NCBI RefSeq assembly: GCF_030817355.1
Contig: NZ_JAUSZH010000001.1
Location: forward strand, 8,207,517-8,271,516
Length of the DNA: 64,000 nucleotides
From: Streptomyces sp. V1I1
GTDB lineage: Bacteria > Actinomycetota > Actinomycetes > Streptomycetales > Streptomycetaceae
Reading direction: 5' to 3'
Shown here: in pieces, positions 6,645 through 49,548 of the stretch
Layout of the letters: each line of letters begins with the position of its first letter
Position numbering within the stretch: the stretch's first letter is position 1
Translations under genes and position numbers: made by a program
The notes under the pieces: model-generated
What the model was told of the DNA's origin: nothing
What the model saw: the letters and a program-made list of their open reading frames with translations, nothing else
Databases searched by the model: none

Positions 6645-7751
6645 GTGACATACAGCAATCCCCAGGTGGAGCCGGAGGACGCTGCCGCCATTGCCGCGTA
6701 CGAGGAAGCGCTGCGCGAGTTCACCATGGAGCTGAACCGGCTCCACATCGCGTACGGCGCGCCGTCCTACGCCACCCTCGCCAAGGCATCCGTGCGGCCG
6801 AGGCTGACCAAGGCCGGCCTCAACGAGGTACTGTCCGGCAAGCGATTCCCCTCCCTGGAGGCGCTGCTTGAATTCGTCCGGGTGGTCAGCAACCCGCAGC
6901 CTCCCCTGCCGGATACCCCGGCCACCTCCCGGGCCCGCCCGGAGCTCGCGGACCAATGGCGCAGCCGGTGGCAGCACGTCAAGTTCCTGCAGCGGCAGGC
7001 CCACGCCCCGTGGAAGCGCCTGCGCGCCACCGTGCAGGACACACTCGACCAGGCCCTTGGGGAAGCCGAGGACGTCCGCGCAACTGCCCACGAGCAAGCC
7101 GCCCGCCTGCGCGCCGGCGCGGAAGCAGAGGCCGAGCGCCTGCGCACCACGGCCCAGCACGATGCCGATCAGCTGCTGCAGCGTGCGCAGGCGGAGGCCG
7201 AGCAGCTGCAGTTACAGGCACTGCAGGACGCCGAGGAGCTGCGCGCCTCCGCCCGCACAGACACTGACAGGACGTCGTCGCGGTGGGGCGTCGGCCCTAT
7301 ATCTCCTCGACGAGCGTGGCGCCCTCTGGTCGCGGTGGTAGCGGTCACCGGGGTGGGGCTGGCCCTCACGCTGGCTGCGGATTCCATCACCGGGCAGCTT
7401 TCCAGCTCCTGCCGGCCCACCCGCGCTCACACTGCCGCGCCGGTCATCCCTGAGGCCTCCCTCCAGCCCGGCGGGAGCACGCAACAGGTGGCAGTAGCCC
7501 ACGAACCGCAGATGATCTTTCCCGGCCCGTCTTGGTCGGGCTGGCCCTCCCCCGACTGGTCCACGACGACCTGGTCCACACCGACCACGGCCACACCCTC
7601 GGAAGACCCTGCCCCCACTGGCAGTAGTTCTCCAACACCCAGCGCCTCGCAGACGCCCACTGATTCCGAAACCCACGCCCCGGCTGACGTATGCGCCCGT
7701 ACCGGCCCGTCCGCGAGCCCGACGCGATCGCCTAGCCCATCCGCCTCGTGA
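6645..7751 (+). CDS. Membrane-anchored HTH protein with coiled coil and Ser/Thr/Pro-rich tail, 368 aa
   Basis: The start is taken as GTG 6645 (VTYSNPQVEP) after GGGAG at 6631. An upstream ATG at 6498 lacks a good ribosome site and adds low-complexity sequence. Residues 15-85 (YEEALREFTMELNRLHIAYG, then LTKAGLNEVLSGKRFPSLEA) resemble the XRE-type HTH of Streptomyces regulators. Residues 100-215 are an Ala/Glu/Gln/Arg coiled coil (AEAERLRTTAQHDADQLLQR). A transmembrane helix (LVAVVAVTGVGLALTLAA) follows near residue 230, then a Ser/Thr/Pro-rich tail of about 110 residues. The topology suggests a cytoplasmic DNA-binding domain tethered to the membrane with an exported tail. It is divergent from the small membrane protein gene. 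Confidence 0.7.
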   Translation: MTYSNPQVEPEDAAAIAAYEEALREFTMELNRLHIAYGAPSYATLAKASVRPRLTKAGLNEVLSGKRFPSLEALLEFVRVVSNPQPPLPDTPATSRARPELADQWRSRWQHVKFLQRQAHAPWKRLRATVQDTLDQALGEAEDVRATAHEQAARLRAGAEAEAERLRTTAQHDADQLLQRAQAEAEQLQLQALQDAEELRASARTDTDRTSSRWGVGPISPRRAWRPLVAVVAVTGVGLALTLAADSITGQLSSSCRPTRAHTAAPVIPEASLQPGGSTQQVAVAHEPQMIFPGPSWSGWPSPDWSTTTWSTPTTATPSEDPAPTGSSSPTPSASQTPTDSETHAPADVCARTGPSASPTRSPSPSAS

Positions 7752-7844
7752 GCCTGACGAAGAGCGATGAAGTGGTTGGCGAACGCGCGGTCTCCCAGCT
7801 GCATCGCAAGGGCGGCCCGGCTGCGGTGAAGGCTGGAGACAGAA

Positions 7845-8570
7845 TCAGAAAGCTCGCGACCAACGCAACGGATCGCGGCGGATCTCCTTGATCAGCATAC
7901 GGAACAGCGACCTGTCGAACAGGACTCCGTAAAACTCCTCGGACACCTGCGTTCCATTGATCACCGCGGCAGGTGTGCCAGGCACGCGGGCCCCCTCGTA
8001 GGCCTCCTCGGACGCCGCCACAAAGCTGCGGTACTTCATGGTCTTCACAGCGGAGTCGAATGAAGCGCTCCGAAGACCATTCACCTTGCCAGCCAGCTCC
8101 AGCAGGAAGGCATCCGTGTAGCCATCGACCGCCTCTTCCGGCTGGTTCTTGTACAGCACCGCGTGAAACTCGGCGAACATGCCCGCATCCAGCGCGGCCC
8201 GCAGAGCGTTGACGGCCTTCTTCGAGCCACTGCCGCCCAGCCGGTCGTCGAGGAAGGAGGCCAAGACATACTCGGTCTTCGCCTCGCGGCGCACCGTCAT
8301 GGAGCGCACTTCCGGACCGGCACCGGTCAGCTCGAACTCCTCGCACGCCGGGCATCGCGGATCCTCGTAAAGCCGCACCGTCATCGGCGCGTCAGGATCT
8401 CCCACTGTGATGGTGGTGCCATCCACGCCGAGCTTTTCGGGCAGCTCCTCCAGGCCGGCGTAGGCGGCCACTGTCGGTGCGCTTCGTGCACCGCACCCCG
8501 CCGACGTCCATGCGACCGCACCGATCACCATCACGGACAGCAGCCGCTTTCCAAGCTGTTTCACCAGCAT
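7845..8570 (-). CDS. DsbA/thioredoxin-fold lipoprotein, 241 aa
   Basis: ATG 8570 follows GGGGAGGG. The signal peptide (MLVKQLGKRLLSVMVIGAVA) ends in lipobox TSAGC with Cys26, so the product should be an extracytoplasmic lipoprotein. A thioredoxin-like domain follows, with the redox motif CPAC at residues 73-76 (VRLYEDPRCPACEEFE) and the cis-Pro loop PGTPAAVING near residue 210. This matches thioredoxin_4/DSBA proteins that oxidise or reduce exported thiols. It is convergent with the HTH gene and about 90 bp from it. Confidence 0.85.
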   Translation of the reverse strand: MLVKQLGKRLLSVMVIGAVAWTSAGCGARSAPTVAAYAGLEELPEKLGVDGTTITVGDPDAPMTVRLYEDPRCPACEEFELTGAGPEVRSMTVRREAKTEYVLASFLDDRLGGSGSKKAVNALRAALDAGMFAEFHAVLYKNQPEEAVDGYTDAFLLELAGKVNGLRSASFDSAVKTMKYRSFVAASEEAYEGARVPGTPAAVINGTQVSEEFYGVLFDRSLFRMLIKEIRRDPLRWSRAF

Positions 8571-38959: not shown

Positions 38960-39770
38960 GTCGTTGTTCCGAACGGCAGCGGCAACGCGCTGGTGTTCAG
39001 GCGGCTGCGAGGGTGTCCGACGACGCCTCGGTCTGGCGGCGGGGGCGGGACATGAGGGTGATGAACGCCCACTGGATGTGGGCTTCGGCGTGGGACATGA
39101 GCCGTTCGTAGTCCCTTGCGTTGCGTCGGGCCCGCATCGTCCACGAGTTGCTCCGTTCCACCACCCACCTCTTGGGCAGCAGGACGAAGCCCTTGGTGTC
39201 CTTGGGGCGGGGGACGACCTTGATCGTGATGCCCAGGGTGTCCTGGGCCCAGGTGCTGAACTCCTCGCCTCCGTAGCCGTTGTCCGTCCAGACCAGGACG
39301 ATTTCGGGGTGTTCGGCGTGGAGGCGGGTGAGCAGGATGCGGGCCGCGTCGCGGTCCTGGACGTCGGCGGGGGTGACGAGCAGGTCGACGAGCAGGCCGT
39401 CCTGGTCAACGAGGAGATGCCGCTTCCGCCCATTTATATGCTTGTTTGCGTCTTATCCTCGCGTCGCGTTCGACACGGTCTCCGCACCTTTGACGGACTG
39501 GGAGTCCACGATCACCCGGACCGGCCAGGGACAGCGCCGACGGCGCAGCCGCAACCGTCGGCGGAGCTGGTCAAGGATCCTCTTGAGCACGTCGGCCTTT
39601 GCCCAGCGGGCGAAGTATCCGAACACGGTGCGCCACGGGATGCCGAAGTCGGCGGGCAGCGCCCTCCACTTCGCACCGTTGTCGGTGATGTAGCGGATGG
39701 CGTCGACCACGCGGCGCCTAGGCCACTTCTCCGGGGCCCCGCGCCTAAAACGTAGGACCAGCTTCTGACA
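38960..39770 (-). pseudogene. IS5-family transposase, copy 1, 5'-truncated with internal TAA
   Basis: From GAPEKWPRRRVVDAIRYITD the minus strand matches copy 2 almost exactly: NGAKWRALPADFGIPWRTVF and PVRVIVDSQSVKGAETVSNA. A TAA at 39455-39453 follows (SNATRG then stop). The same frame then continues with NGRKRHLLVDQDGLLVDLLV-type sequence and DNGYGGEEFSTWAQDTLGIT to a TGA at 38999. The N-terminus is replaced by unrelated sequence. The IS right end (GTCGTTGTTCCGAACGGC) is near 38960. The orientation is inverted relative to copy 2. Confidence 0.8.
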
Positions 39771-40321: not shown

Positions 40322-40350
40322 TTGACACACGGATATCCCATTAATAAGTT
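40322..40350 (+). promoter_or_regulatory. Strong sigma-70-type promoter
   Basis: TTGACA at 40322-40327 is a perfect -35. TAAGTT at 40345-40350 is a -10 (TAnnnT) at 17-bp spacing. Transcription would start near 40357, about 35 nt before the 12-codon ORF. Confidence 0.7.
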
Positions 40351-40391
40351 TTCCTCGTCCTCGCAGGTAACGAGAACGAAGGGAGGCACTC

Positions 40392-40430
40392 ATGCAGATC
40401 AAGAAGATTCTCCGCGACTTCCCCGCGTGA
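40392..40430 (+). CDS. 12-residue peptide ORF, candidate RiPP precursor or leader peptide
   Basis: The ORF reads MQIKKILRDFPA and ends with TGA. An excellent ribosome site AAGGGAGG (40379-40386) lies 5 bases before the ATG, and the strong promoter is 40 bp upstream. An 11-bp stem-loop follows 20 bp after the stop and precedes the enzyme operon. The peptide is amphipathic and basic. The codons show no run of a single amino acid as expected for amino-acid attenuation. The order promoter, tiny gene, stem-loop, enzymes and exporter matches microcin C (mccA), where a 7-codon gene is followed by a terminator. Precursor status is inference. Confidence 0.6.
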   Translation: MQIKKILRDFPA

Positions 40431-40450
40431 ACGCGACGTAGGTGAGATGC

Positions 40451-40482
40451 CGGGGTGGAGTACTCAAAAAGACTCCACCCCG
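40451..40482 (+). terminator. Stem-loop between peptide ORF and enzyme operon (attenuator)
   Basis: CGGGGTGGAGT at 40451-40461 pairs perfectly with ACTCCACCCCG at 40472-40482 around a 10-nt A-rich loop. No T-run follows, so it may partially terminate or protect the short upstream transcript and set a high peptide-to-enzyme ratio. Confidence 0.65.
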
Positions 40483-40540
40483 CCCCACCTATCGCGCCGT
40501 CCAGTTGCAGCGCCGCTCACCTTTTCTGGTGGAGAGAATT

Positions 40541-41608
40541 GTGAGAAATGTAGTCGTCGGGGTCGGGTCGATTGGCTCGCAGCACGCTCGTCACCTTCGA
40601 GATGCTGGGCACGATGTATTCACTGTGGATGTCAGTGGGGCGGCTGACGGGGGGCGCGTTTCCGATGTAGGCGAAGCGGCGAGTGTTGATGCCTGGGTTG
40701 TAGCTACACCAACCGCCAGTCATCTCGGCGTCGTCCGCGAGATACTCTCCGTCGCGCCGGAGGCTCGCATTCTCCTTGAGAAGCCGGCCTGTCATCACGA
40801 AGATCTTTCCGAGCTTGCTGATTGCTTGCGTCAGCATCCGGGGTCTCGTGTGATTGTCAACGATGTATACGGGCTAAGCCCAGCGGTCAGATCGTTCATT
40901 GACGAGCTGGAACCCGTCCAGTCGAACGACCCTATTTCCAAGATAATTATTGAGTTCACGAAGAACCGTCAGCAGGACGTGGCCAACGGGCGCTTCGTGG
41001 ACACCGAGTACGGGGACGCAGGATACGAGTGGTTTCACATGCTCAGCCTCCTGGGGCGGCTTCTTCCCCGCCCACAGTTCGAGGCTTACCTGAAGGTCTC
41101 CCCGGGCGTCGTCACGCCTGAGATACGAACCCGCGTAGTGCTCGACGGCAAGAATCTGGTGGAAATTGACCTCTATGCGTCCGTTCGCGGACAGATCGCC
41201 TTCGGGCAGATCGCGGGATCAACTTTCTCCTCGCCGGAAGCCCGCCGGATCGTCCAATCCGGCCACATACCGTATGGATCCGAGCTGCGATATCGAATAG
41301 TACATGTTCTGATGCGGTCAGGAGCCTCAAAGACGCTCGTATTCGAGCCTGAGTACAAGTACTCCGAAGACTACAAGAATGTCCATGTGATACGCGGCCG
41401 CGGCTTCCCCGAACATCGCTACATCCGAGTGTCCACCAACCACTTCAAGCATGCGGTGATCGCTCAGATAGACAGGTTGATGGGGGCAGGTGCGCAAACT
41501 GATCTACGCGAAGCAGAGCATTTCTACATGGCTATGCTGGCGCGCTGGGTGCGTACTTCGGCCGCCCTTTCCAACTCGAGCGACAGGAGGGAGTTTGTAC
41601 ATGTATGA
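40541..41608 (+). CDS. Gfo/Idh/MocA-type NAD(P)-dependent oxidoreductase, 355 aa
   Basis: GTG 40541 (RNVVVGVGSIGSQHARHLRD) follows GGAGAG. A GTG at 40529 would add four residues. The Rossmann motif VVVGVGSIGSQH is at the extreme N-terminus, ATPTASH follows near residue 65, and ILLEKPAC (the conserved EKP of the family) near residue 90. This fits an NAD(P)-dependent dehydrogenase acting on a sugar-like or amino/hydroxy acid substrate. The C-terminal domain (EYGDAGYEWFHMLSLLGRLL) carries the His/Asp region. The gene overlaps the start of the next one. Role in the pathway: oxidation or reduction of the modified unit (inference). Confidence 0.82.
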   Translation: MRNVVVGVGSIGSQHARHLRDAGHDVFTVDVSGAADGGRVSDVGEAASVDAWVVATPTASHLGVVREILSVAPEARILLEKPACHHEDLSELADCLRQHPGSRVIVNDVYGLSPAVRSFIDELEPVQSNDPISKIIIEFTKNRQQDVANGRFVDTEYGDAGYEWFHMLSLLGRLLPRPQFEAYLKVSPGVVTPEIRTRVVLDGKNLVEIDLYASVRGQIAFGQIAGSTFSSPEARRIVQSGHIPYGSELRYRIVHVLMRSGASKTLVFEPEYKYSEDYKNVHVIRGRGFPEHRYIRVSTNHFKHAVIAQIDRLMGAGAQTDLREAEHFYMAMLARWVRTSAALSNSSDRREFVHV

Positions 41609-42998
41609 TTCATTCTTCGTGCGCCCTGGCCCGGGTGGGAGGATGTCGCTCGACGAATTTATGGAGAGACATCCGGAGCTCTCGTTCGATACCGCACGGG
41701 CGGCAGACGACAAGAAAGATACGCCGCATCTCGAGGCGTGCCTTCTTCATTTCACTGAGTACGTATCCGGGAAGGAAGGAGGGAATTTCACGTGGACGGC
41801 TGACGTGCGCAGACAGGTATCTCGGCACCCGGTCTATCGGCGCCCTGCATACTCCGTCGACGAGTTTGGAACGCTCCCGACCCTCAGCAGGTCGGAACTG
41901 CGCAAACTGCGCGAACCGTTCGATTACGAGGCATCCGGCACCACCACCGCGTACGGGGACCAGACATCCGGGACATCCGGAGCACCTCTGACGGTCGTCT
42001 ACAGCCCCCGGTTCATGTCTCAGTACCTGCATCTCAACATGTTCAAGGTTGCGATCCGCGCTGGCATCCGAGACCTCGGCGGGCGACAGGTCTTCGCGGT
42101 CACCATCACCGACAACCCGTCACTCGGGGCAGGGGTCATCATCCCTGACCCCCTCGACCTGGTGGGCCTGCGGCTCATCTGGTACGTGGACCCCAGTGAT
42201 CCCCAGTCGATCGCACGCCTGACGACGTTCCTCCGAGAGTTCGACCCGGAGGTGCTCTCGTCCAAGCCGAACCTGCTCCAGATGCTCCTCGACCACTGGG
42301 AAACCGAGAGCCCGGAACCACCGTGCGGCCCGCGGTTCGCCGTCTCCGGCGGCGCCATGCTCCCTGATGCGTTGAGGCAGCAGATGGCTGACTACTTCGG
42401 CTGCCCCGTGATCAGCGCCTACGCCATCAGCGAGGCCGGCTACCTGGGGTCGGAGTGTGAACGTCAGAAGATCCACCTCGACGAATCGCTGCACGAGAGG
42501 TTCGAGATCCTGCCGGCCGAAGGGGCGGCGGACACCGAACCCAGCGCAGGCGACTCGGGCGAGCTCGCCGTCACCTCCCTGAGCAACCTGTGCATGCCAC
42601 TGGTGAGGTACAGGGTCGGTGACCTCGCCACGATGTCGCGTAACACCTGCGCGTGCGGGGCCCCCGGCCCTGTGCTCGACGAGCTCCAGGGCCGCACCAC
42701 GCTCGTCTTCGACCTAGGCGGGGGTCATGTCCTGTCGCCGACGCGCTACATGGACTTGTTCAAGGAACATCCTGAACTCCGGGAGTACCAGCTCACACAG
42801 CGCGACACCCGGTCATTCCTGCTCAGGATCGAACTAGCGGACGACGTCGCCCCGTCCAGTCGGCCGGTGATCTACACGCGGATCCAAAACGCCATCTCGG
42901 CAGGTATGCCCGTGGCGGTTGAGATCGCCTGGGAAGAACACACCTTCGCACCAGAAGGTGCAAAGTTCGCACGATTCCGAAGTGAGGTCAGCGCGTGA
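41601..42998 (+). CDS. PaaK/CapK-like adenylate-forming enzyme, 465 aa
   Basis: ATG 41601 follows AGGAGGGAG and overlaps the upstream stop. ANL motifs are present: phosphate loop TSGTSGAPLTVVYS (122-135), SGGAML (249-253), AYAISEAGYLGSEC (A5, 273-285) and VRYRVGDLA (A7, Tyr337-Asp341). Cys350 and Cys352 (CACG) fit the zinc-binding site of phenylacetate-CoA-ligase-like proteins. The C-terminal domain (FLLRIELADDVAPSSRPVIY) is short. The enzyme should activate a carboxylate as an acyl-adenylate, then transfer it to CoA, an amine or another acceptor. No carrier protein is encoded nearby. It is coupled to the next gene by GTGA. Confidence 0.82.
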   Translation: MYDSFFVRPGPGGRMSLDEFMERHPELSFDTARAADDKKDTPHLEACLLHFTEYVSGKEGGNFTWTADVRRQVSRHPVYRRPAYSVDEFGTLPTLSRSELRKLREPFDYEASGTTTAYGDQTSGTSGAPLTVVYSPRFMSQYLHLNMFKVAIRAGIRDLGGRQVFAVTITDNPSLGAGVIIPDPLDLVGLRLIWYVDPSDPQSIARLTTFLREFDPEVLSSKPNLLQMLLDHWETESPEPPCGPRFAVSGGAMLPDALRQQMADYFGCPVISAYAISEAGYLGSECERQKIHLDESLHERFEILPAEGAADTEPSAGDSGELAVTSLSNLCMPLVRYRVGDLATMSRNTCACGAPGPVLDELQGRTTLVFDLGGGHVLSPTRYMDLFKEHPELREYQLTQRDTRSFLLRIELADDVAPSSRPVIYTRIQNAISAGMPVAVEIAWEEHTFAPEGAKFARFRSEVSA

Positions 42999-44239
42999 TC
43001 GAGAACATCATCAAGGACTTCGAGAAGCTCATCAGGCTCGTTCCCGACCTACTGACAGCCGTCACTGCCAACAGCACGTCCACTGAAGAACTCCACGACA
43101 CGGTGGTCCAAGCCCTGCGGACCGACCCCGACGCCCGGCACAGTTTTCACCGCGCGTGCTGCTTCGAAACCCCGTTCGGTGAAAGCTGGGTACACGAGGC
43201 CGGAAAGGACAGCCCCTACCTGTCCCTCGACCTGGCCGCCGAGGCCCTCGACGCGACCCAGTACCGCGCACTTCTCGCGGACGTACTCATGTCCACATCA
43301 ACCACCATCCCCTACGACTACCGGGCCCTCGCCGCGGAACGCCTCGTGGAGATCGGCCTTGGTGAGACCGAGGACGCGCTGCGCCGTGTCCTGGCGCCCA
43401 CCGACGGCATCCCCGAACGCACTCTGGAGATGAAGCTCGACGTCCGCACCGATGGAATAGACCACCTGTTCGATATACCGCTTGACATCGAGGGGCGCCT
43501 GGATCTGCTCAAGGAAGCCAGCGCCATCAAGTGCCGTGAGAGCCGTAAACTCCTCGCTCTTCGCGTCCTGGAACGCAGCGGCAAAAGCGGCCAGGCCGAG
43601 GAATCGGGGCGTGTGAGCAACTACGCGTCGGACACGGCAGAGCAGTTGATCCGCCAGGACGTCGGAACGTCCATGGTCTCGGCCACGGACTATCTCGTCC
43701 CCTGGGATCAGATCCTGGCTTCCGCCGGCGGCGCCGACGACGGACTGACGCTGGCGGAGCTGCTCCGCATCGTGCTCCTCGCCCCCGAGTTCAAGCTTCC
43801 CGACACGACGGTGCGGCCGGTACTCGTCGCCTTCTACCGTTCCGTTTTGCGGATCAGCGGACGGTCGATCGTCGGGCTGGGCTCGGGAGTCTTCTATGTC
43901 GAGCACGGCGCCGACGCGAACCCGTCGTACTTCTACATGGGACGCGACGTCGTGCTGGGCAAGGGCTGCACGATCGACTGCGTCGGCGGCGCGGTCCTGC
44001 AGCAGGGCGCCTTCCTGGGCGGAGGGTTCATGCCCGTCCTCATCCACACGCACAAGCACATCCGCAAGCCCGGCGAACCCGGGGCGGCAGAACGCAAGCA
44101 GGTGCTGCCCGCCCTGTTCGTCGCCGAGGCCGGGGCGCGCCTGCCGATGGACGCGATCGGGATCTTCGAGACCGCCAACTACCTCGGACTCGGCGAAAGT
44201 CCCTACGACGGCATCTACGCCGTCGCCCTGACCAAGTAG
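42995..44239 (+). CDS. Unknown biosynthetic protein with beta-helix-like C-terminal domain, 414 aa
   Basis: GTG 42995 overlaps the PaaK-like stop (GTGA). Residues 1-250 are mostly helical (MIENIIKDFEKLIRLVPDLL, LAAERLVEIGLGETEDALRR), possibly HEAT-like. Residues 309-360 (YMGRDVVLGKGCTIDCVGGA, VLQQGAFLGGGFMPVLIHTH) have the hexapeptide periodicity and His-containing loop of left-handed beta-helix acyltransferases. The C-terminus is LPMDAIGIFETANYLGLGES. An acyl- or aminoacyl-transfer role using the adenylated product of the upstream enzyme is plausible but not shown. No known full-length family is recognised. Confidence 0.65.
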   Translation: MIENIIKDFEKLIRLVPDLLTAVTANSTSTEELHDTVVQALRTDPDARHSFHRACCFETPFGESWVHEAGKDSPYLSLDLAAEALDATQYRALLADVLMSTSTTIPYDYRALAAERLVEIGLGETEDALRRVLAPTDGIPERTLEMKLDVRTDGIDHLFDIPLDIEGRLDLLKEASAIKCRESRKLLALRVLERSGKSGQAEESGRVSNYASDTAEQLIRQDVGTSMVSATDYLVPWDQILASAGGADDGLTLAELLRIVLLAPEFKLPDTTVRPVLVAFYRSVLRISGRSIVGLGSGVFYVEHGADANPSYFYMGRDVVLGKGCTIDCVGGAVLQQGAFLGGGFMPVLIHTHKHIRKPGEPGAAERKQVLPALFVAEAGARLPMDAIGIFETANYLGLGESPYDGIYAVALTK

Positions 44240-44249
44240 GAGCCCTGAC

Positions 44250-45113
44250 ATGCCTGACGATGACCTCATTCCCGCGCCCCAGGGATTCGACCAGGAATCG
44301 TGGGCCAGGTTCGCTCGGGACGGCATCCTCGTCGTCGAGGACGCCCTCAAACCCGACCAGGTCCAGAGCCTGACCGAAGCCCTTGAGGAACAGCCGCGGC
44401 CGACCGGCTGGAACATCGTCGAATCCGACCCGCGCCTTGCCGAGATGATCGACGCTCCGGCCCACATCGGTTACGTGTACGACGTCTACGGCGACATGCT
44501 GAAGCTGCTGCGCAGCGAGTTCTTCAAGCGAGAGCCCGGTCAGGAGATCCGTAACCTCTGGCACTTCGACGGACCGCGAGTGCTGCCGTTCGACGTCTTC
44601 GGATCCGCAGCCCCCCTGCGGATCAAGGTGGGCTACTGGCTGACCGCCCTGACACACGAGGACATGGGCAACCTCGTGTACATACCCGGCAGCCATCGCC
44701 GAGCGGTCGTGGACCAGTACCACACGCATGAACCGCACCCGGATGAACAGCAACTCCACGTGCGGCCAGGGGCCATGACGCTCATGTGGGGCGGCTTGCA
44801 GCACAGGGTCGCCGAGAACCGAAGCGAGATCACGCGCCTCAACGCCTTCTTCGAGTACGGCCCCTCGTGGATCGTCACCAGTGACAGGGTCCGGTCCGAT
44901 CCCGAATGGGTCTCGTCTCTCACCCGTACCCGCCGGATCCTCATGCGGGACTACGAACACCCCAACAACATGATCAAACTGCCTTCGGCAGACGTCCCCC
45001 TGTTCCTGCCCCGCCCGGGCGAGACGGATCCCCACCAGGGCCGGTACCAGGACCACGTACCCCTGGCACTGCGCCGGCGCAGCACCTGGCTCGAACAGCA
45101 GGGGATCCTGTGA
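44250..45113 (+). CDS. PhyH-type Fe(II)/2-oxoglutarate dioxygenase, 287 aa
   Basis: It starts at ATG 44250 (MPDDDLIPAPQGFDQESWAR), 10 bp after the previous stop with GGAG upstream. The iron triad is WHFD (His105, Asp107) and the distal His185 (WGGLQHRVAEN). Arg191 or Arg196 would bind 2-oxoglutarate. The jelly-roll segment LTHEDMGNLVYIPGSHR is typical of phytanoyl-CoA dioxygenase-like enzymes, which hydroxylate or desaturate small molecules and peptides. All catalytic residues are present. The stop overlaps the ABC ATPase start (GTGA). Confidence 0.85.
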   Translation: MPDDDLIPAPQGFDQESWARFARDGILVVEDALKPDQVQSLTEALEEQPRPTGWNIVESDPRLAEMIDAPAHIGYVYDVYGDMLKLLRSEFFKREPGQEIRNLWHFDGPRVLPFDVFGSAAPLRIKVGYWLTALTHEDMGNLVYIPGSHRRAVVDQYHTHEPHPDEQQLHVRPGAMTLMWGGLQHRVAENRSEITRLNAFFEYGPSWIVTSDRVRSDPEWVSSLTRTRRILMRDYEHPNNMIKLPSADVPLFLPRPGETDPHQGRYQDHVPLALRRRSTWLEQQGIL

Positions 45114-45781
45114 CGACACCAGGGCTGCAGCTCAAAGACGTCTCGTACCGCTACCCGCGCGCCAGCAAGTCCGACTACGTGATCCGCGAGGCCACCGTCG
45201 ACATCCCCGACGGGGAAGCCGTGGGCCTTGTCGGACCCAACGGCTCGGGCAAGAGCACCCTGCTCAAAGTGCTCGCCAACCTCCTGCGGCCGACCTCCGG
45301 TGAGATTCTCTACCAGGGGCGCCGGCTGAAGGTGAACGACCAGGCTTTCCGTGCATCCCTGAACTACTGCGCCGGCGCGCCCCAGGGATTCTATCCACGG
45401 CTCACCGGCGGCGAGAACCTTCGCTTCTTCTCCGGCATGAAAGGCCGTATGTTCACACGTGAAGAAGCCGAAGTCTTGCTGGAAACCGTAGGGCTGAAGA
45501 ACAACGCGGACACCGTTTACTCGAAGTTCTCGCTCGGGATGCGCCAGCGCCTGCACATAGCCTGTCTCCTCATCGAGCCCGCCAGCCTGTGGATTCTGGA
45601 TGAGCCCACCACCGGCCTCGACGCCGAAGGCGTCGAGATGCTGGAGTCCATCCTGTCAAGATCGACCAACAAGACACGCATCATCGTCAGTCACGATGCC
45701 GATTTCATCGACAGAATGACCACCCGCCGGATCGTGATCGAAGGAGGGGGGCTGAAGTGTCACGATTCTTCATTTTCCTGA
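45110..45781 (+). CDS. ABC transporter ATP-binding protein, 223 aa
   Basis: GTG 45110 overlaps the dioxygenase stop. Walker A is GPNGSGKST (42-50), the signature is FSLGMRQRL (140-148), Walker B is LWILDEP (160-166) and the H-loop is His195 (IIVSHD). It is of the single-domain type that pairs with ABC-2 permeases for export. The 3' end overlaps the first permease by 25 bp. Role: energising export of the pathway product and possibly self-resistance. Confidence 0.9.
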   Translation: MTTPGLQLKDVSYRYPRASKSDYVIREATVDIPDGEAVGLVGPNGSGKSTLLKVLANLLRPTSGEILYQGRRLKVNDQAFRASLNYCAGAPQGFYPRLTGGENLRFFSGMKGRMFTREEAEVLLETVGLKNNADTVYSKFSLGMRQRLHIACLLIEPASLWILDEPTTGLDAEGVEMLESILSRSTNKTRIIVSHDADFIDRMTTRRIVIEGGGLKCHDSSFS

Positions 45782-46494
45782 TCAGGGTCCAGTGGATCGA
45801 CCGCCTCGCCACCTCCTCATTCCTGATCGGCATCACCGTCCAGACAGCCCTCCTCACGCTGGCCCTCTATCACGCCGCGGAAAACCAGCAGACCGTCATG
45901 GTGTTCGCCACCCGGGCATCACTGCTGACATGCACATCGATCGTCCTGCTCTCCGCCATGTCCAACATCCAGAACGAATTCCGCTACGGAACCATAGAAC
46001 GCGTACTCCTGGGCAAGGTGCCGTTCTCCCGGCTCCTCGCCGTACGCTCCGCCTCGGCCGCGATCGTCGCTTCACCCGCCATCGTTGTGCCGTTCATCGG
46101 AGCGGTAGCCCGATTCCCCGACATGCTCACCCCGCGAACCGTCCTGCTGGTCGCCATGGTGTACATATTCCTGGGATCACTCTGCTACCAAGCGACCCTC
46201 GTTCTGTGCCAGTTCAGAAACGCGGCCTCCATGGTCCCCTGGATAAGAATGGTGCTGCTCTTCCTCGGTTTGTCGGTCATCCCGTTCGAAGGATCGGAAG
46301 CCGTCTCCCTGCTCCTGCCCACCGGCTGGATGCTGCGATTCGCCGAGGCAGGAAGCACTGAACAAGCACTGCTCTTCCTGGCAGCATTCCTGCTGGTCAC
46401 CCTTACCTGGACCGGGGGCATCTGGAAGGCCTTCGGTGCACGGTCCATGAAGGTCGTGGAGAAGAATATGACCGATGGGGCGGAAGCGACATGA
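45757..46494 (+). CDS. ABC-2-type permease, 245 aa
   Basis: GTG 45757 lies inside the ATPase gene. Six hydrophobic stretches are visible (LATSSFLIGITVQTALLTLA, LLTCTSIVLLSAMSNIQNEF, AIVASPAIVVPFIGAVARFP, TVLLVAMVYIFLGSLCYQA, WIRMVLLFLGLSVIPF, ALLFLAAFLLVTLTWTGGIW). It is too divergent to assign beyond ABC-2-like. It is coupled to the second permease by ATGA. Confidence 0.8.
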   Translation: MSRFFIFLIRVQWIDRLATSSFLIGITVQTALLTLALYHAAENQQTVMVFATRASLLTCTSIVLLSAMSNIQNEFRYGTIERVLLGKVPFSRLLAVRSASAAIVASPAIVVPFIGAVARFPDMLTPRTVLLVAMVYIFLGSLCYQATLVLCQFRNAASMVPWIRMVLLFLGLSVIPFEGSEAVSLLLPTGWMLRFAEAGSTEQALLFLAAFLLVTLTWTGGIWKAFGARSMKVVEKNMTDGAEAT

Positions 46495-47240
46495 TGGAAG
46501 GTACCGCAAGCCCTGAAAGTCGCCTCCCAGCCCCAGCCGAGAAGATGTCAAACGCATGGCTGATGTCACGACTTGTTCTGCGCAACAAAATTCGCCGTGA
46601 AGGCCCCGGCCAATTCTGTTCCAGAATCACCATACTCGCCCTGCTCAATGTCGTGCTGCTGTCCGCGCTCTTCACCACAGCCTCGGGCAGCTCCTTCGAC
46701 CTGGCGATGCTGTCACAGCAGTACACCTACTTCATCCCCCTGCTGGCCATGACCGCAGCCGTGGGTTCCTGGGAGATGGAGCTACTGTCCGGCGTCGGCG
46801 AAAGGTATCTCCAGAAGCCCTCGATGATGTGGCCCACTCGCCTGCTGATCGCCGCAGTCGAGTGCGCGGTTCCCTATCTCGTATTTATCATTCTTATCGG
46901 CATATGGGGTGGGCCCGACACGTTCTCACACATAGTCACAGCAACACTCATGCTCGTCACATTCTCTCTCTTCGGTGCCGCCTTCGGTTTCTGTATCGGA
47001 TTCCGCCACGAGAAGGCTGTAAACAACTTCCTCAACTACATTCCTTGGGTTCTGGGATTCGGCCCCGGACCGTTCTTCGGGAATGACGCCTCCGGACCCG
47101 CTCGCTTGCTTCCAGGAGGCTTCTCCTCCACAGGAGACTTCGGTCTCGAGTGGCTGAAAATGGGAGTGATTGCCGCGCTCGCCTTCTGGATCAGCGCCTG
47201 GGGAAGCCGCGCCCGCCGCCACCGCTTCTACACCCGATGA
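46491..47240 (+). CDS. ABC-2-type permease, 249 aa
   Basis: ATG 46491 overlaps the upstream TGA. About six membrane helices follow a cytoplasmic N-terminus (RITILALLNVVLLSALFTTA, YFIPLLAMTAAVGSWEMELL, LLIAAVECAVPYLVFIILIG, IVTATLMLVTFSLFGAAFGF, WLKMGVIAALAFWISAWGSR). With the preceding permease it forms a heterodimeric membrane unit. It is the last gene of the operon; a perfect palindrome follows 83 bp downstream. Confidence 0.8.
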   Translation: MMEGTASPESRLPAPAEKMSNAWLMSRLVLRNKIRREGPGQFCSRITILALLNVVLLSALFTTASGSSFDLAMLSQQYTYFIPLLAMTAAVGSWEMELLSGVGERYLQKPSMMWPTRLLIAAVECAVPYLVFIILIGIWGGPDTFSHIVTATLMLVTFSLFGAAFGFCIGFRHEKAVNNFLNYIPWVLGFGPGPFFGNDASGPARLLPGGFSSTGDFGLEWLKMGVIAALAFWISAWGSRARRHRFYTR

Positions 47241-48572: not shown

Positions 48573-49548
48573 CGGAACACGAGAGGCAACGGGCCGCGAC
48601 CGCCCCGCAGTTGGCCCCATCCACCGGTCGCGGCCAGGCACCGTCATGCTGCTGCCCCGCTACCGCTACCCCTCCGACACCAGCGACGTCGAATGGGCTC
48701 TGCTCAAGGCACTCCTCCCGACTCCCGCCTGCCAGAAACCCAAGGGCGGCGCCCCGGAGAAATGGCCCCGGCGCCGCGTGGTCGACGCCATCAGGTACAT
48801 CACCGACAACGGTGCGAAGTGGAGGGCGCTGCCCGCCGACTTCGGCATCCCGTGGCGCACCGTGTTCGGATACTTCGCCCGCTGGGCAAAGGCCGACGTG
48901 CTCAAGAGGATCCTTGACCAGCTCCGCCGACGGTTGCGGCTGCGCCGTCGGCGCTGTGCCTGGCCGGTCCGGGTGATCGTGGACTCCCAGTCCGTCAAAG
49001 GTGCGGAGACGGTGTCGAACGCGACGCGAGGATAAGACGCAAACAAGCATATAAATGGGCGGAAGCGGCATCTCCTGGTTGATCAGGACGGCCTGCTCGT
49101 CGACCTGCTCGTCACCCCCGCCGACGTCCAGGACCGCGACGCGGCCCGCATCCTGCTCACCCGCCTCCACGCCGAACACCCCGAAATCGTCCTGGTCTGG
49201 ACGGACAACGGCTACGGAGGCGAGGAGTTCAGCACCTGGGCCCAGGACACCCTGGGCATCACGATCAAGGTCGTCCCCCGCCCCAAGGACACCAAGGGCT
49301 TCGTCCTGCTGCCCAAGAGGTGGGTGGTGGAACGGAGCAACTCGTGGACGATGCGGGCCCGACGCAACGCAAGGGACTACGAACGGCTCATGTCCCACGC
49401 CGAAGCCCACATCCAGTGGGCGTTCATCACCCTCATGTCCCGCCGCATGGCCCGCCCCCGCCGCCAGACCGAGGCGTCGTCGGACACCCTCGCAGCCGCC
49501 TGAACACCAGCGCGTTGCCGCTGCCGTTCGGAGCAACGACACCGCTTT
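48573..49548 (+). mobile_element. IS5-family insertion sequence, copy 2
   Basis: The left end near 48577 (GGAACACGAGAGGCAACGGG) and the right end near 49520-49548 (inverse of CCGAACGGCAGCGGCAACGC) form imperfect inverted repeats. The right end is shared with copy 1 up to the GTTCGGA.CAACGAC block. Confidence 0.65.
48646..49503 (+). pseudogene. IS5-family transposase, copy 2, interrupted by TAA
   Basis: ATG 48646 (MLLPRYRYPSDTSDVEWALL) opens the DUF4096 N-terminal domain (GGAPEKWPRRRVVDAIRYIT) and the first Asp block (VIVDSQSVKGAETVSNATRG). A TAA at 49033-49035 follows in frame where family members usually have a Tyr/Phe codon. The same frame continues DANKHINGRKRHLLVDQDGL, VLVWTDNGYGGEEFSTWAQD and SWTMRARRNARDYERLMSHA to TGA 49503. 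Only read-through or suppression would give full-length enzyme. Copy 1 has the identical TAA. Confidence 0.82.

Follow-up and report, generated by a model that had tools for sequence, protein, structure and literature searches.

A twelve-codon gene and a seven-gene operon

The window analysed here is a stretch of 64,000 nucleotides of Streptomyces sp. V1I1 (contig NZ_JAUSZH010000001.1, positions 8207517-8271516), which lies close to the right end of its contig in a genome of 8.3 Mb. Within it, a short open reading frame (ORF) of 12 codons, a stem-loop and seven larger genes, designated G1 to G7, follow each other on the forward strand; the short ORF is considered here as the candidate gene of a precursor peptide. 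It extends from ATG 40392 to the stop codon TGA (40428-40430), encodes the peptide MQIKKILRDFPA, and has counterparts in Streptomyces muensis (locus L004), Streptomyces sp. AJS327 (L013; four copies), and Kitasatospora sp. MAP5-34 (L009). The Shine-Dalgarno (SD) sequence AGGGAGG (40380-40386) is located 5 nt ahead of the start codon, and 10 of the 11 codons after the start have G or C as last base. The stem-loop (40451-40482) begins 20 nt past the stop codon; its arms CGGGGTGGAGT (40451-40461) and ACTCCACCCCG (40472-40482) form 11 perfect pairs. The region 40432-40540 folds with a z-score of -3.53, and none of 200 shuffled sequences folded equally well. The distance from the stop codon to G1 is 110 nt.

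Direct reading of the sequence thus recovered the 12-codon ORF, the ribosome site and the 11-bp stem-loop reported in the initial annotation. The promoter, which had been called textbook, has to be downgraded: at 40322-40350, a perfect -35 hexamer TTGACA (40322-40327) and a 17-nt spacer are followed by a weak -10 hexamer TAAGTT (40345-40350), which agrees at 3 of 6 consensus positions (only TAnnnT fits), and the site is not among the predictions of a sigma-70 scan. The hairpin is not among the predictions of a scan for terminators with a U-tract, and scans of the window with Rfam (gathering threshold) and for tRNAs gave no matches.

The seven genes are intact and overlap or almost touch each other, in agreement with the tight coupling initially described, and Pfam backs the Gfo/Idh, AMP-binding, PhyH and ABC ATPase assignments. 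G1 (40541-41608) encodes a Gfo/Idh/MocA-type dehydrogenase (PF01408, E-value 1.4e-6, above cut-off) with a GxGxxG-like N-terminus and an EKP motif; it was aligned with its relatives from S. muensis, AJS327 and Kitasatospora, and its start was placed at GTG 40541 rather than at the mechanical ORF start 40442. G2 (41601-42998) is a PaaK-like adenylate-forming enzyme (PF00501, E-value 9.5e-9, above cut-off; PDB matches 9s3l, 4r1l, 6siw, 6wuq). All its matches to PaaK-type families of NCBIfam are below cut-off; for the PaaK equivalog, phenylacetate-CoA ligase, the score is 45.2 bits at a cut-off of 646.3. In an alignment, the loop TSGTSGAP and the C-terminal GAKFARF with its lysine are kept in S. 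muensis and AJS327; we take this loop and the C-terminal lysine to be core motifs of AMP-binding enzymes.

G3 (42995-44239) belongs to an unnamed family. It had been described as beta-helix-like, which stands for one part of the protein: the C-terminal part, which carries the invariant motifs VEHG and HTHKH, is probably left-handed beta-helix acyltransferase-like, and the N-terminal part is probably helical. A Foldseek search with the full-length model of G3 gave no match at E <= 0.001; the C-terminal part modelled alone reached a pLDDT of 40.9 and was not used. Neither G3 nor G6 nor G7 has a match in Pfam or NCBIfam. G4 (44250-45113) is a PhyH-type Fe(II)/2-oxoglutarate dioxygenase (PF05721, E-value 9e-11, above cut-off), which matches PDB entries 4nao and 5nch, the latter a leucine hydroxylase. 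Its iron site HxD...H is represented by WHFDGP and QHRV/WHRV in the window, S. muensis and Kitasatospora (the AJS327 row was unused). G5 (45110-45781) is the ATPase of an ABC transporter (PF00005, E-value 9.5e-32, and ABC ATPases of NCBIfam). G6 (45757-46494), a membrane permease assigned to the ABC exporter, is 67%, 66% and 55% identical to its relatives in S. muensis, AJS327 and Kitasatospora; for the second permease G7 (46491-47240), these values are 55%, 63% and 52%. With PADLOC, the ABC ATPase was the only protein matched.

Recurrence of the short gene with the full operon

A search of genome contigs with an alignment of G3 gave 23 loci with a G3 relative, the window apart, and a search of genome contigs with the PaaK-like protein G2 gave no match. 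At all 23 loci a G1 relative stands beside G3. At three of them, those of S. muensis, AJS327 and Kitasatospora, PhyH and exporter genes are present as well. In Kitasatospora a PaaK-like gene leads the operon; its product is 23% identical to G2 over 325 residues, and its AMP-binding match (E-value 6.6e-6) is below Pfam's cut-off. Although this enzyme and the accompanying peptide are both divergent, the layout is the same as in the window. The other 20 loci (L005-L008, L010-L012, L014-L026), found in Amycolatopsis, Nocardia, Actinomadura and others, resemble the window in that related G1 and G3 genes are adjacent and in the same order. Here they form a conserved three-gene unit with an FAD enzyme, which in each case has at least 66% identity with the L024 enzyme, itself matched by FAD_binding_2 of Pfam. 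Matches to G2, G4, G6 and G7 above 50 bits are absent from these 20 loci; a generic ABC ATPase match (69-76 bits) occurs at nine of them, several kb off and on the opposite strand.

All loci were scanned by one rule (ATG start, 7-16 codons, at least 5 bases of SD, at most 600 nt upstream). A short ORF precedes the operon at all four loci with PhyH and exporter, the window included, whereas among the 20 FAD-type loci one is found upstream of the FAD gene at a single locus and upstream of G1 at none. For 4/4 versus 1/20 the hypergeometric probability is 4.7e-4, calculated as if the 20 related loci were independent of each other. A conserved short ORF in homologous operons, which the initial annotation had named as the check on its proposal, is thus kept in every full operon that could be read.

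The peptides are MKKIIKSIIRMGDA in S. muensis and MTITLKEAA in Kitasatospora, each encoded ahead of the operon behind a strong ribosome site. AJS327 has four tandem ORFs of 12 codons, encoding MTFKSIIRMGVG (copy 1), MTVKTIIRLGNG (copy 2) and MTFKNIIRMGVG (copies 3 and 4); each has a separate SD, the spacers are 42, 52 and 39 nt long, and the only differences between copies 3 and 4 are two synonymous changes. A stretch of 24 nucleotides is identical in the ORFs of S. muensis and AJS327; in 256 random pairs of 440-nt pieces of these loci, the longest match had a median length of 9 and never exceeded 19. Among 124 exact 12-codon ORFs starting with ATG on both strands of the sources scanned, the window peptide is the closest to those of the relatives after AJS327's four, in a ranking for which three of the four comparison peptides come from AJS327. 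All seven peptides of the four loci end in alanine or glycine, versus 174 of 1048 background short ORFs. The spacing is similar, too: the hairpin starts 20 nt (window), 26 nt (S. muensis), 23 nt (AJS327, last copy) and 17 nt (Kitasatospora) after the stop codon, and the last stop codon precedes the first gene by 111, 99 and 123 nt in the three relatives. The z-scores of the three corresponding folds are -5.43, -2.15 and -2.42.

These data bear on the possibility that the ORF arose by chance in a leader region. Short ORFs with an SD are fairly common: a scan of both strands of 24 sources (537 kb), which accepted ATG, GTG or TTG as start, 7-16 codons and at least 5 bases of SD, gave 252, of which eight, among them those of the window and S. 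muensis, are followed within 100 nt by a perfect stem of at least 9. Given the recurrence at four of four operons, the tandem copies, the motif common to three of the loci and the like spacing, we regard a chance origin as extremely improbable.

The main rival to a precursor gene is a leader peptide with an attenuator, where translation of the ORF senses a drug or the supply of aminoacyl-tRNA, the hairpin controls the operon, and the enzymes make a small molecule that does not involve the peptide. Position, length, strong SD and a hairpin 17-26 nt further on suit this explanation equally well, and relatives of G1 and G3 do occur at loci without a short ORF. Moreover, the peptides are basic, as are some drug-sensing leader peptides. 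Four near-identical tandem copies as in AJS327 would, however, be unexpected for an attenuator, which also leaves the alanine or glycine at seven of seven C-termini without a role. Runs of codons for the same amino acid are never longer than two, and the window hairpin was not listed by the U-tract terminator scan. In the window, pairing of the ORF with the two hairpin arms gave -15.5 and -7.6 kcal/mol (means of 300 shuffles: -14.0 and -10.3), that is, no clear antiterminator. On balance, attenuation is an unlikely explanation, yet one to be taken seriously.

According to another explanation, G5-G7 export the peptides unmodified, or nearly so, as signals or small bioactive peptides, and the enzymes produce a small molecule of their own. 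This would account for the co-occurrence of peptide genes and ABC exporter at four of four loci, while G1 and G3 are mostly without both at the other 20. However, the exporter genes abut or overlap those of the enzymes, the PhyH and PaaK-like enzymes accompany the short ORF just as the exporter does, and inspection by eye showed no receptor or regulator gene that all four loci share. We consider such a division of labour to be quite improbable.

Distribution, neighbouring genes and mobile elements

A phylogeny of 44 G3 proteins unites the 20 FAD-type loci in a single clade (100/100). Ten rows labelled as PaaK-bearing, four of them read directly and six assigned indirectly, lie across one branch from this clade; 14 rows for which the context was not established are left out of that count. 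The G3 family comprises at least 64 relatives besides that of the window. At least 8 of 14 close PaaK relatives (P0067-P0080), AJS327 among them, apparently co-occur with a G3 relative, and in three of these eight G2-G3 pairs the locus tags are neighbours. The association of G2 and G3 is probably wider than the loci readable as DNA.

Further full operons were sought with G3 in draws of genomes. In the genus draw, 2 of 392 have it (the strain itself and S. muensis), and two more draws of the genus, which overlap, gave S. muensis alone (1 of 322 and 1 of 293). The draw of relatives gave 1 of 199 (the strain itself), and that of the class 3 of 394, namely the strain itself and two matches, which with 18.8 and 19.5 bits were taken as chance. 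A search of the genus draw with G6 gave matches in 115 of 392 genomes, which were strong only in the strain itself and in S. muensis and otherwise mostly reached about 30 bits or less. No G3 relatives were found in plasmids and viral contigs.

The operon of the window is framed by two inverted copies of an insertion sequence (IS), each with a transposase-like gene, at 38960-39742 (reverse strand) and 48746-49540 (forward strand). Sequence comparison of the two copies gave repeats of 699 nt (99% identity) and 98 nt (97%); being 97-99% identical and about 9 kb apart, they create a layout similar to that of a composite transposon. About 170 kb off on the same contig is a third copy, which is partial (584 of 895 bases, 97%). 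In S. muensis, a transposase-like gene was seen by eye past the operon. Because of these IS copies and the transposase-like gene of S. muensis, the operon has likely been spread by mobile elements, as far as can be judged from the sequence. Another genome of the genus contains, in the 17 kb examined, only pieces of a broken G4 (PhyH) and of G6 (L049, about 7670-8112), the latter a 55% match with an internal stop; these pieces are the remnant of a lost operon.

Several neighbouring features were recorded. Large regulators of the SARP type (BTAD, NB-ARC, TPR) are encoded shortly past the operon at two of the four loci (L013:15825-19034 and L009:7391-10357). Directly past the exporter of AJS327, the product of L013:14300-15637 has a weak ATP-grasp match below Pfam's cut-off and could be a tailoring enzyme. 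Further on, L013:20433-20685 is a tandem repeat of the 7 bases GCCGGGA with about 37 copies inside a coding-like stretch. At FAD-type loci, a UDP-glucose dehydrogenase-like gene follows the FAD/G1/G3 unit in L024 (Pfam) as well as in L012 and L015 (by eye).

Comparison with known systems and proposed function

The arrangement resembles that of microcin C, as the initial annotation had pointed out, and the parallel has gained by its recurrence: a short ORF with a strong SD, about 20 nt, a hairpin, an adenylating enzyme and an exporter are present in all four full operons. According to PMC6495379, a terminator hairpin separates the short gene mccA, which has a strong SD, from mccB; ribosomes that bind mccA cause termination, and the resulting short message goes through many rounds of translation. 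As outlined there, MccA peptides mostly have 7 amino acids, rarely 8, and 17-56 in one clade; their length is better kept than their sequence, and they end in an asparagine, which is the modified end. Counted on the template printed there, the hairpin begins 24 nt after the mccA stop codon, as compared with 17-26 nt in our operons. The differences are equally clear. The adenylating enzyme is the ThiF-like MccB in microcin C and the PaaK-like G2 here, and the seven peptides end in Ala or Gly instead of Asn. Additionally, our operons contain PhyH, Gfo/Idh and G3 genes, their exporter belongs to the ABC transporters, and the peptide gene can be present in as many as four copies. Membership in the microcin C family was therefore rejected, as the seven proteins have no ThiF match (for G5, among the best 25 of 193 NCBIfam matches) and the peptides have no C-terminal Asn.

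Two further systems of ribosomal peptides are instructive. Biarylitides (PMC13417212) derive from a precursor of five amino acids, whose gene of 18 bp was overlooked by automatic annotation; the present case is similar in that the precursor gene would likewise be too small for automatic annotation. In biarylitides, a cytochrome P450 cross-links an aromatic motif, whereas our operon has no P450 match in Pfam or NCBIfam and its peptides have no such motif. For the side ring of nosiheptide (NosI/NosJ/NosK), PMC5585349 describes an adenylating enzyme which activates an acid that further proteins pass on. On this basis, NosI is a distant precedent for a PaaK-like enzyme and an acyltransferase working around a ribosomal peptide; the nosiheptide pathway, however, depends on a carrier protein and on a thiopeptide precursor, neither of which is seen in the operon. 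By sequence, G2 belongs to the same family as PaaK-like enzymes of secondary metabolism, such as the 'PaaK-like ligase' 6siw, AjiA1 and BagE/FevW, but differs from them in that its scores are far below the NCBIfam cut-offs. We know of none of these secondary-metabolism enzymes that acts beside a ribosomal peptide.

With a probability of roughly 0.6, we interpret the 12-codon ORF as the precursor or scaffold gene of a tiny ribosomal peptide product, which the proteins of the seven genes modify and export. A gene-encoded candidate precursor conserved beside enzymes, the mark of ribosomally synthesized and post-translationally modified peptides (RiPPs), is found at four loci. In agreement with the initial annotation, no enzyme of the known RiPP classes was detected among the seven proteins with Pfam and NCBIfam, which is why assignment to an existing class was rejected. 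The system is most plausibly a new RiPP-like family, still a candidate, which lies outside the existing classes and centres on an adenylating enzyme of the PaaK type. Of the precursor interpretation as originally put forward, the genetic part has been strengthened by the recurrence of the short ORF with the operon and by the four tandem copies; the chemistry and the product we only infer. The adenylation plus acyl transfer, hydroxylation and dehydrogenation that had been proposed are a reading of family names and may apply.

If the short ORF is a precursor gene, the hairpin would curb transcription, so that the peptide message is in excess over that of the enzymes, as for mccA; the four gene copies of AJS327 would likewise raise the supply of peptide. 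G2 would activate a carboxylate with ATP. The most attractive substrate is the C-terminus of the peptide itself, given the small residue at the end of all seven peptides; G2 could equally activate a small acid, which G3 would attach to the peptide. The acyltransferase-like G3 would form the new bond, PhyH might hydroxylate an aliphatic position (Ile or Leu), which G1 would oxidise or reduce, and G5-G7 would export the product. The order given for the steps from activation to export is provisional.

Several observations weigh against a precursor function. The comparison of short ORFs in full operons covers four loci, each from one species, and the peptide is modestly conserved: the window, S. 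muensis and AJS327 have in common K4, I6, R8 and hydrophobic positions, and the Kitasatospora peptide is unlike the others. Of 7848 12-mers started by ATG, 27 score at least as high as the window peptide, itself and the four AJS327 copies counted. Copy 2 of AJS327 differs from the other copies by 6 non-synonymous and 1-2 synonymous changes; hence purifying selection is not clearly evident from the copies. The hairpins of AJS327 and Kitasatospora are just 2.2 and 2.4 standard deviations past their shuffles. One FAD-type locus (L010:7148-7183) does have an SD-bearing short ORF, encoding MRRPGLNSLPG and accompanied by a 16-bp hairpin; the same scan found none in its sister L014. Furthermore, G1 and G3 are without a short ORF at most of the 20 other loci, so that these two enzymes, at least, need no peptide. 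As this pair occurs elsewhere without it, we suppose that the peptide belongs chiefly with PaaK, PhyH and the exporter. Enzymes of a known RiPP class are missing. In the PMC open-access literature, none of the best-ranked matches dealt with the peptide or the operon, or described a ribosomal peptide as substrate of a PaaK-like enzyme.

A more specific version, which we put forward tentatively and hold to be possible rather than probable, is a class of leaderless mini-RiPPs: in peptides of 9-14 residues, encoded in multiple copies in some strains, a PaaK-type (ANL) enzyme would adenylate the carboxylate of the C-terminal Ala or Gly, and an undescribed family of beta-helix acyltransferases would join it to another group that PhyH and Gfo/Idh finish. 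Genes of 9-14 codons are overlooked by annotation, and to our knowledge the enzyme set of the operon has none of the features by which genome-mining tools detect ribosomal peptides. If this version is true, the microcin C principle would have a second adenylation chemistry. If the broader precursor interpretation is right, the action of PhyH, a PaaK-like enzyme and a yet unnamed acyltransferase-like family on a tiny ribosomal peptide would open a new way of making peptide natural products, and the operon would give a handle for finding further systems of this kind.

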